Origin: Bdellovibrionales bacterium
GTDB taxonomy: Bacteria > Bdellovibrionota > Bdellovibrionia > Bdellovibrionales > Bdellovibrionaceae
DNA: 64,000 nt
Reading direction: 5' to 3'
NCBI GenBank assembly: GCA_018266295.1
Contig: JAFEAQ010000004.1
Span: 372,001 to 436,000 of the forward strand
In this document: piece by piece, positions 280 to 46,560 of the stretch
Position numbering within the stretch: position 1 is the first letter of the stretch
Layout: each line of letters opens with the position of its first letter
The notes under the pieces: model-generated
Told to the model about the DNA's origin: nothing
The model's input: only the letters and a program-made list of their open reading frames with translations
Databases searched by the model: none
Program-made: the position numbers and the translations under genes

Positions 280-2736
<2,457 letters not shown>

Positions 2737-2756
2737 TTAATTTTTGAACTGGTGAA

Positions 2757-5222
2757 ATGATGGACAATACTAATCAAGAAAAAGGCGTAACGGTCGTAGA
2801 TATCAACAAGGAGATGCGTGATGCGTATCTTCAGTACTCGATGTCAGTGATCGTGGGCCGTGCCCTTCCAGACGTGCGTGACGGTTTGAAACCGGTTCAT
2901 CGCCGTATTTTGTTTGCTCAGCACGAACTCAGCAATACACACGATAAACCATATAAAAAATCTGCCCGTGTAGTCGGTGACGTGATCGGTAAATACCACC
3001 CGCATGGTGATGCTGCCGTTTACGAAACGATGGTTCGTATGGCGCAGGACTTCTCTCTTCGCTACCCGTTGACGGATGGTCAAGGGAACTTCGGTTCGAT
3101 CGATGGTGATAATGCGGCTGCTGCCCGTTACACCGAAGTTCGTATGACTCGTTTGGCGGAAGAACTTCTGAACGATATTGAAAAAGAAACGGTTCCATTT
3201 GGTCCGAACTACGATGACTCTTTGGAAATTCCATTAGTATTGCCGGCGAAGTACCCGAACCTTTTGGTGAACGGCTCTTCTGGTATCGCGGTTGGTATGG
3301 CGACAAATATTCCGCCACACAATTTGGGCGAAGTGATCGATGGTTGTATCCATGTGATCAACAATCCTGATTGCTCGATCGACGATGTGATGATGCACGT
3401 AAAAGGTCCGGACTTCCCGTCTTCTGGTGTAATCGCTGGTCGTGAAGGAATCATGCAGGCCTACAAAAAGGGCCGTGGCGTTATTACTTTAAAAGCGGTT
3501 GCTGAAATCGTTCAAGGTAAAGACCGCGAAGAAATCATCGTTAGCGAAATTCCTTACCAAGTGAATAAAGCAAAGCTCATTGAAAGCATCGCGGACCTTG
3601 TTCGTGATAAGCAAATCGAAGGTATCTCTGATATCCGCGATGAGTCTTCTCGTGAAGGTATGCGCATTGTGATCGTGCTTAAGCGCGGTGAAAACGCAAC
3701 TGTGATCTTGAATCGCTTGTACAAGTACACGCAAATGCAAATCAGCTTCGGTATCATTATGCTGGCGTTGGATGCGAAAAACCAACCAGTGACTTTCAAT
3801 TTGAAAAACATGTTGGAAGCTTTCGTTGATCACCGCCGCGACGTTGTTACTAAACGTTGTATCTTTGAATTGAAGAAAGCCCAAGAACGCGCACACATCT
3901 TGGAAGGTTTGAAAAAAGCCCTTGATCACATCGATGAAGTGATCGCGACAATCAAAGCCTCTAAAGAAGCCAATGCGGCTCGCGAAGCCTTGATGGCGAA
4001 GTTTGAATTCAGCGAGCGCCAAGCAGTTGCGATTCTTGAAATGCGTTTGCAGCGTTTGACAGGTTTAGAGAGAGATAAAATCCTCAACGAACTTGCTGAA
4101 TTGATGAAACAAATCGACTGGTTGAAAATGGTTCTTTCTGACGTTCGCGAGATCTATAAAATCATCGTGGCCGAACTTGAAGACATCAAAAAGCGTTACG
4201 CGGACGCTCGTCGTACCCAAATCACCGGCGATTTGACAGATATCGAAGACGAAGACCTGATTGCTGATGAATCGATGGTTGTGACAATCACAAACACTGG
4301 TTACATCAAGCGTATTCCGACTGAGGAATACCGTCTGCAAAAACGTGGCGGTAAAGGTCTTAAAGGTATCGAAACGAAAGAAGAAGATTACGTTACTAGC
4401 ATCTTTACTGCGAGTACGAAGACAATGCTCTTGGTATTCACAGATAAAGGTAAAGTCTACTGGTGTAAAGTTCATAGACTCCCGCTTGGCAACCGTACCT
4501 CAAAAGGAAAAGCGATTGCGAACGTGGTTCAATTGGCATCTGGAGAGAAAGTTCGTTCTATCCTCCCGATCGATCAATTCGAAGAGAACAAGTACATCGT
4601 TATGTTGACTGAAAAAGGGATTATCAAGAAGACCTCTTTGGATTCCTTCTCAAATCCTCGTACAGCTGGCTTGATTGCTCTGACGACAGATTTGGATGAT
4701 GCGATCATCGATTGCAAAATCTCAGACGGCACTAGCGACATCTTCATTGCGACTAAAGACGGTATGTCGATTCGTTTCAACGAAAGCGACGTTCGCGGTA
4801 TGGGTCGTACGGCTCGTGGCGTGAAAGGTATTACTTTGGCGAAAGACGATATCGTTATCGGTATGGAAGTCTTTGAAAAAGGCAGCAAAGATACTATTTT
4901 AATGGTGACTCAATCTGGTTACGGTAAACGTTCTGAGCTTGAAGAGTACAGAATCCAAAGCCGTGGCGGTGTGGGTATCATCACTCAGAAAACCACTGAC
5001 AAAGTCGGTATGGTTGTCGGAACGCGCAAAGTAAAAGCGACTCAAGAAGTGATCTTGTCGACTGATAAAGGTCAAAACATCCGTATGAAGGTTTCTGATA
5101 TTTCTGTCCTCGGCAGAAATACTCAAGGTGTTCGTTTGATCAACCTCGGCGAAAAAGAGGAAATGGTCACGAGCCTTGCGGTCGTAGACGACGAAGAAGT
5201 TGCGGGTGAGGAAGTTCACTAA
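2757..5222 (+). CDS. gyrA: DNA gyrase subunit A
   Basis: Breakage-reunion subunit of gyrase, 821 residues. The catalytic tyrosine is Tyr125 in the motif ARYTEVRM. The C-terminal half carries repeated beta-pinwheel blades, with the GyrA-box-like element [10 protein letters not shown] near residue 529 and later RGVKGI and QSRGGVG repeats. The quinolone-determining region reads [10 protein letters not shown], so the E. coli Ser83 position is alanine (Ala86) and the Asp87 position is glutamate (Glu90). ATG ATG at 2757/2760 gives two equivalent starts. The gene lies directly behind gyrB and ends one base before the next start at 5224. Confidence 0.97.
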
Positions 5223-28801: not shown

Positions 28802-29101
28802 TTAGTTATTTTTCTTAACACGAATTTTGTAATTGTCGATTTTCTTTTTCAAAGTGTTGCGATTGATGCCTAGCATTTGAGCGGTTTTAACTTGGTTACC
28901 GTTGTAGGCGCGGAGTGCTAGCTCCAGCAAAGGTTTTTCAACTTGTTCGATAACGACGTTGTAAAGGCCATTGAGTTCTACTTGCGCTTCTTTTTGTTGA
29001 GCAAACAAAACTTCGAGTTTGCTTTTTACAAGCTTCTCGAGGCTTACAGATTGAAGATTTGCAACAAAAAGATTGTCTGAACTGTTCAGGTTCGGCGTCA
29101 T
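28802..29101 (-). CDS. fis: Fis-family DNA-binding protein
   Basis: A 99-residue protein, almost the length of E. coli Fis (98). The C-terminal half matches the Fis helix-turn-helix: VEKPLLELALRAYNGNQVKTAQMLGINRNTLKKKI, of which NGNQVKTAQMLGINRNTLKK is the core. There is no AAA+ or receiver domain, so it is a stand-alone nucleoid/regulatory protein and not the tail of an enhancer-binding protein. GGGAG precedes ATG 29101. It sits between queE and dnaB; a shared transcript with queE is possible across the 69-base gap. Confidence 0.88.
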   Translation of the reverse strand: MTPNLNSSDNLFVANLQSVSLEKLVKSKLEVLFAQQKEAQVELNGLYNVVIEQVEKPLLELALRAYNGNQVKTAQMLGINRNTLKKKIDNYKIRVKKNN

Positions 29102-41361: not shown

Positions 41362-42813
41362 ATGAACGGCGAAACTTCTCCAAGCTTCAAAAGCGCAAAA
41401 TACACAGCCATTATTAGCGACCTGCATCTGTGCGAGGCCGAGCCTATTAATCCCAAGTTTCCCCTCTGGAAAAAGTTTAAGACCAAGCAGTTTTTTTTCG
41501 ACGATATCTTCACAAATTTTCTGCAGGAAATAGAAAACAAAGCCAAAGGCGAAATCGTCGAGTTGGTTTTGAACGGCGATATTTTTGATTTTGATAGCGT
41601 CCTGCGTTTGCCTGAAGAGCCGATTTTTAGAGTGAGCCGTCTTGAAAAAAGACGCGGTCTTTATCCGCGTGCTGAGCGTTCTAGTTTCAAAATCAAAGTG
41701 ATTCTTGAGGACCATGCGATCTTTATGCGTTCATTGCGTGAGTTCATCCGTCGCGGAAATCGTGTAGTCTTTGTGATCGGTAATCACGATCTTGAGCTTC
41801 ACTTTCCGGAAGTTCAGCAAGAAGTTCGTCACGCATTGGATCTGACGGAAGAACAACAACATCAGGTTCGCTTTGTGGAATGGTTTTATATTTCAAATGA
41901 AGACACCCTGATTGAACACGGAAACCAGTACGATCCTTATTGTATGTGTGAGGACCCGATCAACCCGTATGTGCAAGGATATAACTTTGTTTCGCTCAGG
42001 CTGCCGTTTGGAAATCTCGCGTGCCGGTATATCATGAACGGCTTGGGATTCTTTAATCCCCATGTCGATTCAAACTACATCATGGGTATTACAGATTATG
42101 TGATGGTCTTTTTGCGTTACATGGCCCGCGCTCAGCCCTTCATGGTCCTTACTTGGTTCTTTGGGTCGATCATGACCCTGATTCAATCCTTTAAAGACCG
42201 CTTGGCGGCGCCCATCCGGAATCCACTCAAGATTGAAGACCGTATTGAGGCCATTGCCCGTAATTCAAACGCCGAACCGAGGATGGTGCGCGAGATGAAA
42301 GAGCTTTTTGTGGCTCCGGCGGCCAGCAATCCGTTCTTGCTTGCCCGCGAGCTGTGGTTGGACCGGGCTTTCTTGATTTGTGTCGCGTTCTTTTTGATCT
42401 TTGAGCTGATGATTTTTGTTCGGCAGGTATATGATTTGTCGTTTTTCTGGGCATTTATTCCGATGTTCATCTTGCTGCCGTTTTTTCTCTTTTATAGCAA
42501 ATCCGTTACTTCGTTGGTTTCCAGTTATAAAGAGCCGAATGAAAGAATCTTGGCGATGACGAGTACGATTACGAAGGTCAAACGCGTCATCTATGGGCAT
42601 ACTCATCACGTTCGCCACGAAATGATTGGCGCAGTAGAACACTTGAACTCAGGCTGCTGGTCACCGGCTTTTTTAGATATCGAGTGTACGAAACCACTGG
42701 ATCAGAAAACGTACGTGTGGATTTCTCCCCTTGAAACCGGAGAAAGACAGGCGGAACTTTACAAATTTATCGACGGACAATCGCAACTCTTTATGTCGGC
42801 AGGCATTCGCTAG
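41362..42813 (+). CDS. Membrane-associated metallophosphoesterase
   Basis: A 483-residue calcineurin-like phosphoesterase. Metal ligands are seen as Asp20/His22 (SDLHL), Asp73 (LNGDIFD), Asn141/His142 (GNHDLE), His186 (IEHGNQYD) and His413/His415 (GHTHH). Between GNHD and GHTH lies an insertion of about 200 residues with hydrophobic segments at roughly 258-275, 336-353 and 359-379, so the two halves of the active site are joined through membrane helices. The fold recalls LpxH/UDP-sugar hydrolases, but the membrane insert is different. The substrate is unknown. murD is divergent, 77 bases away. Confidence 0.85.
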   Translation: MNGETSPSFKSAKYTAIISDLHLCEAEPINPKFPLWKKFKTKQFFFDDIFTNFLQEIENKAKGEIVELVLNGDIFDFDSVLRLPEEPIFRVSRLEKRRGLYPRAERSSFKIKVILEDHAIFMRSLREFIRRGNRVVFVIGNHDLELHFPEVQQEVRHALDLTEEQQHQVRFVEWFYISNEDTLIEHGNQYDPYCMCEDPINPYVQGYNFVSLRLPFGNLACRYIMNGLGFFNPHVDSNYIMGITDYVMVFLRYMARAQPFMVLTWFFGSIMTLIQSFKDRLAAPIRNPLKIEDRIEAIARNSNAEPRMVREMKELFVAPAASNPFLLARELWLDRAFLICVAFFLIFELMIFVRQVYDLSFFWAFIPMFILLPFFLFYSKSVTSLVSSYKEPNERILAMTSTITKVKRVIYGHTHHVRHEMIGAVEHLNSGCWSPAFLDIECTKPLDQKTYVWISPLETGERQAELYKFIDGQSQLFMSAGIR

Positions 42814-42920
42814 TTAAAAAAGCCTTTGTTATGCGCCGCGCGAAAAATAGAATTTGTCAATGACCAGGCGCTATGCAAACCTCTTAATGTTTTTAAAAGC
42901 GAAAACGGAGGCTAAGGACT

Positions 42921-43115
42921 ATGTCAGAAGTACTAGTTGTAACTAGCAAAGTAAAAAAATTGATCAAGGAAAAAGGCGGAATGAATACTTCTGCTGAAAC
43001 GATCGACGTTTTGAGCAAAGCGATTGAGCAACTCTGCCTTAAAGGCATTGATAGCGCGAAAGCTGACGGTCGCAAGACTGTAATGGCTCGTGATATCGTT
43101 ATTGATCACTTGTAG
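42921..43115 (+). CDS. Bacterial histone (single histone-fold protein)
   Basis: A 64-residue protein that is one histone fold. Helix 1 is SKVKKLIKEKG, loop 1 GMNTS, long helix 2 AETIDVLSKAIEQLCLKGID to SAKADG, loop 2 RKTV and helix 3 MARDIVIDHL. The archaeal-type motif R-x-T-x-x-x-x-D is intact (Arg51, Thr53, Asp58), the arginine-aspartate clamp of histone dimers. It resembles Bd0055/HBb of Bdellovibrio bacteriovorus, an abundant chromatin protein. There are no tails. The start has GGAGG and AAGGA upstream. It is monocistronic, with its own terminator at 43157. Confidence 0.9.
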   Translation: MSEVLVVTSKVKKLIKEKGGMNTSAETIDVLSKAIEQLCLKGIDSAKADGRKTVMARDIVIDHL

Positions 43116-43156
43116 AAATTAGCCTTACACCACGGGCTTTTTATTTCGAACTTTAA

Positions 43157-43189
43157 AAAGAAGCTCGCAAGGGCTTCTTTTTTTATTTT
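43157..43189 (+). terminator. Terminator behind the histone gene
   Basis: AAAGAAGC (43157-43164) pairs with GCTTCTTT (43173-43180), followed by TTTTATTTTT. Confidence 0.85.
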
Positions 43190-43214
43190 TGTGGCTTATG
43201 CTTTAGGTAAAGCT

Positions 43215-44192: not shown

Positions 44193-46560
<2,368 letters not shown>

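Follow-up and report, generated by a model that had tools for sequence, protein, structure and literature searches.

A positional orthologue of the Bdellovibrio histone HBb in the near-origin region of a Bdellovibrionales genome

The small histone of Bdellovibrio bacteriovorus, HBb (Bd0055), has already been isolated, crystallised in free and DNA-bound form (PDB 8fvx, 8cmp, 9ezz and 9f0e) and tested, and ranks first in abundance among the proteins of the nucleoid fraction of this species (PMC10627809). In the published work it is an abundant dimer that bends DNA independently of sequence and thereby makes the nucleoid more compact (PMC10627809, PMC11317129, PMC11390915), with dimerisation in solution, DNA bending and the lack of sequence specificity reported in PMC11317129. 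B. bacteriovorus has a second histone, Bd3044, of the ZZ type, in which a histone domain follows an N-terminal zinc-finger domain. More distant relatives include the FtF histones HLp of Leptospira (9qt0) and HTkC of Thermococcus (9f2c), which are reported as tetramers, with HLp wrapping about 60 bp of DNA (PMC12701072). We compare with these proteins a histone encoded in a 64,000-nucleotide stretch (hereafter the window; bases 372001-436000 on a 767-kb contig) of the 4.2-Mb genome of a Bdellovibrionales bacterium. The relatives searched included no other genome of the same genus, and the same family includes B. bacteriovorus-like genomes.

The gene (Table 1) has an ATG start preceded by a GGAGG ribosome-binding sequence, 64 codons and a TAG stop. 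Its product is identical to the Bd0055/HBb crystal sequence at 60 of 64 residues over the full length (94%, E = 1.8e-33), a match far beyond chance; archaeal and Leptospira histones rank next among natural proteins. The four substitutions relative to HBb (A2S, Q20G, V43I and E44D) leave all published DNA contacts unchanged, and the two proteins share length, fold, Cys39 and the RD clamp (R51, K52, T53 and D58), along with D49 and the alpha-1 lysines K10, K12 and K16. A sequence-only reading had assigned the product to the Bd0055/HBb kind from an Arg51-x-Thr53-x4-Asp58 motif in a protein of no other domain, and each of these points is borne out: the protein is a singlet that clusters by sequence with HBb. 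The gene is thus real, and its product is a bacterial-dimer (alpha-3) histone of the HBb type. HLp and HTkC have the same alpha-3 histone fold, but at 34-40% identity. The finding is correct but ordinary: a further member of the Bdellovibrio lineage has the expected copy of the small B. bacteriovorus histone, which adds little beyond one more orthologue; a search for a second HBb-like histone in this genome found none. The Pfam model CBFD_NFYB_HMF scored 21.4 bits, exactly its cut-off, the genome-wide Pfam search missed the protein and the NCBIfam archaeal histone model scored it under the cut-off, so that an annotation pipeline could leave such a gene unlabelled.

Table 1 Features of the window discussed in the text (positions counted from the first base of the window).
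Feature	Position	Strand	Remarks
gyrB and gyrA	280-5222		
Fis	28802-29101	-	HTH_8, E = 1.4e-13
Metallophosphoesterase, conserved upstream neighbour	41362-42813	+	PF00149, E = 3.8e-07
Conserved block TTGTCA-N12-TATGCAAACC	42854-42881	+	aligned in Bdellovibrio-like loci L001-L007
Histone gene, HBb/Bd0055 orthologue	42921-43115	+	64 aa; 94% full-length identity to PDB 8fvx/8cmp
Intrinsic-terminator-like hairpin and T run, 3' of histone gene	43155-43190	+	12-pair stem
NAD-dependent DNA ligase (ligA), convergent conserved neighbour	44193-46541	-	named from sequence
gatC-like ORF	46216-46560	+	

An AlphaFold2 model, built for the monomer only from 35 orthologues, was of moderate confidence (mean pLDDT 84, pTM 0.62) and shows two long helices, spanning residues 2-19 and 25-48, followed by a truncated alpha-3 in the form of a short turn (56-58). 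In a Foldseek comparison with the PDB, the five HBb chains ranked highest (TM 0.78-0.84, E 4e-8 to 5e-7), the best matches being 8fvx (TM 0.84), 9ezz and 8cmp, which cover HBb both free and DNA-bound; HTkC, HLp and archaeal histones came after these with much weaker E-values. The complete histone fold proposed from the sequence is therefore recovered as an HBb-like one, and this ranking, together with the Bd0055 alignment, speaks against a non-histone fold and against a protein without alignment to Bd0055-type histones.

Residue conservation was assessed across 81 orthologues (the window histone and 80 further loci). Twelve residues are invariant (S9, K10, K12, N22, T23, C39, D49, R51, K52, T53, R57 and D58), and T8, K16, S24 and G50 have one exception each. 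The ten DNA-contact residues published for HBb (N22, R57, S9, T53, T8, S24, K10, K12, K52 and K16; PMC11317129) are all identical in the window histone and invariant or nearly so throughout the set, and codon differences between the window gene and its nearest orthologues are mostly synonymous (22-29 synonymous versus 3-5 nonsynonymous). The initial description had singled out Cys39 and a GMNTS first loop as features of this copy. Cys39 is no peculiarity, being present in 81/81 orthologues including HBb; the loop is present as described but does not distinguish the protein, since residue 20 alone differs from HBb (G for Q) and positions 20 (G, E, Q or D) and 21 (C, M, F or Y) vary freely across the class. 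Both were consequently discarded as special features. Cys39 also occurs in the ZZ histone and in the diverged histones described below, and since the term 'Cys' is absent from the body of the article on HBb (PMC11317129), that article assigns it no role.

With family, fold, orthology and contact-residue conservation established here, and with dimerisation, DNA bending, high abundance and likely essentiality carried over from the work on HBb, the window protein would almost certainly act as an abundant nucleoid homodimer that binds DNA independently of sequence, locally bends rather than wraps it and compacts the chromosome. By analogy, the homodimer would form through crossed alpha-2 helices, the L1-L2 loops and alpha-1 would hold the DNA backbone with no sequence preference, and local bending instead of wrapping would lead to compaction. 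The unusual DNA-binding mode attributed to this type in the sequence-only reading corresponds to the straight filament first reported for Bd0055 (PMC10627809), an account since revised to DNA bending (PMC11317129), and the two publications disagree. The two modes are not separable from the sequence. That the histone covers straight DNA with an unbroken nucleohistone filament, with no bending, is favoured by the original co-crystal and in vitro results for Bd0055 (PMC10627809), but we consider it unlikely given the later crystal structures and the tethered-particle, ligation and simulation data showing that HBb bends DNA (PMC11317129).

The genomic position of the gene agrees with that of HBb. 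The metallophosphoesterase gene lies directly 5' of the histone gene in 53 of 74 orthologous loci, and ligA, convergent with the histone gene, lies 3' of it in 76 of 80, followed in the window by gatC-gatA-gatB (the listed ligA ORF probably starts too far upstream, as it overlaps the gatC-like ORF). Between 21 kb and 52 kb (~30 kb), the genes of the window follow the order of the B. bacteriovorus-like genome G006, and the HBb locus of B. bacteriovorus-like genomes has the same neighbourhood and the same distance from dnaA; the window histone is therefore the positional orthologue of HBb. The dnaA gene is located at contig position 368781, 46.1 kb from the histone gene and 3 kb before the start of the window, in which gyrB and gyrA are also found. 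The gene had been described as next to the origin region: near-origin it is, while 'next to' is loose, with dnaA 46 kb off and outside the window. Among 34 genomes (including this one) in which a single contig carries both genes, 32 have them 42-66 kb apart and one 101 kb apart, and in genome G033 the distance became 50.6 kb once the circle of 3,769,537 bases was closed by hand, giving 33 of 34 at 42-66 kb; counting only such pairs biases fragmented assemblies towards short distances, although the single-contig genomes agree. This conserved place, ~48 kb from dnaA, probably entails early replication and a higher gene dosage during growth. The near-dnaA position and the contact residues kept across the whole order fit a housekeeping chromosome role of the HBb gene.

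The window encodes a second nucleoid protein, Fis, as the sequence-only reading had stated, and this Fis is 98% identical to its G006 counterpart. The pair of near-origin nucleoid-protein genes is thus an arrangement held in common with B. bacteriovorus, where the two are Bd0039 (Fis) and Bd0055 (histone; PMC11318664). A search for RNA families in the window found none.

The block TTGTCA-N12-TATGCAAACC, ~40 bases 5' of the histone start codon, is shared by the nearest relatives and could plausibly serve as a promoter or as the binding site of a regulator. Its exact, complete form occurs once in the window, at the histone gene, and it is only partly kept in more distant loci; a variant (TTGT-N13-14-TATGnCA) was observed at a similar place in some distant relatives (8 of 78 loci versus 12 of 8000 random 160-base slices). 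Inspection by eye revealed no fit to canonical sigma-70, FliA or RpoH spacing. Re-use of the block across the genome was considered and rejected, the short pattern showing a modest excess (12 versus 5 for the reversed-pattern control) and the searches returning the longer block only at the histone gene. The downstream hairpin is weak by itself, as shuffled sequences give 0.6 on average, and most of the relatives L001-L007 show other hairpins in a comparable position. The stable neighbourhood with the phosphoesterase and ligA would fit a local transcription factor or partner of adjacent genes in place of a nucleoid protein acting globally, but the histone gene's own upstream block and terminator-like hairpin, the sequence independence of HBb (PMC11317129) and its top abundance in the nucleoid fraction (PMC10627809) make such a role extremely improbable.

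Of the 144 genomes of the class, 135 yielded a histone homologue (E ≤ 1e-5), as did 104 of the 106 of good quality, a few of them with only a ZZ-type paralogue or a diverged copy. Complete loss in the lineages lacking a match was rejected, since a profile search recovered diverged HBb-type histones in most genomes of genera g53, g62 and g63 (1.4-2.0 Mb; loci L132-L136 and L139-L141). In three loci examined, these adjoin ligA and gatA-gatB, the orthologous place. The diverged proteins lack Asn22, Arg51 and Asp58 and keep Lys52-Thr53 and the Cys, so that a few small-genome relatives provide natural histone variants without clamp residues. Across the first 60 codons, three g62 genomes differ by 19-22 synonymous and 0-1 nonsynonymous changes, indicating strong purifying selection on the diverged form. 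No convincing match was found in G112 or in five low-completeness or fragmented genomes (G028, G096, G101, G117 and G136).

The histone domain of Bd3044 is similar to the window histone (47% identity), but the 64-aa protein lacks the N-terminal ZZ zinc finger and is thus not a ZZ histone. A full-length ZZ histone query matched in about half of the class, an upper bound in which matches to HBb-type genes are also counted. Sequence and profile searches of this genome found no histone domain of the ZZ type. That the ZZ histone was here reduced to a stand-alone zinc finger, leaving the HBb type as the only histone, with the freed finger acting on that histone or taking over part of its regulation, is a speculative scenario to which we give little credence. 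A stand-alone gene for a 75-aa zinc-finger protein is present (C17:23188-23412, minus strand; locus L137:1495-1722), with no histone remnant found in a search beside it; its product is 61% identical to the zinc-finger (N-terminal) half of Bd3044 and matches that half only. Similar ZZ-only matches were observed in genomes G044 and G142.
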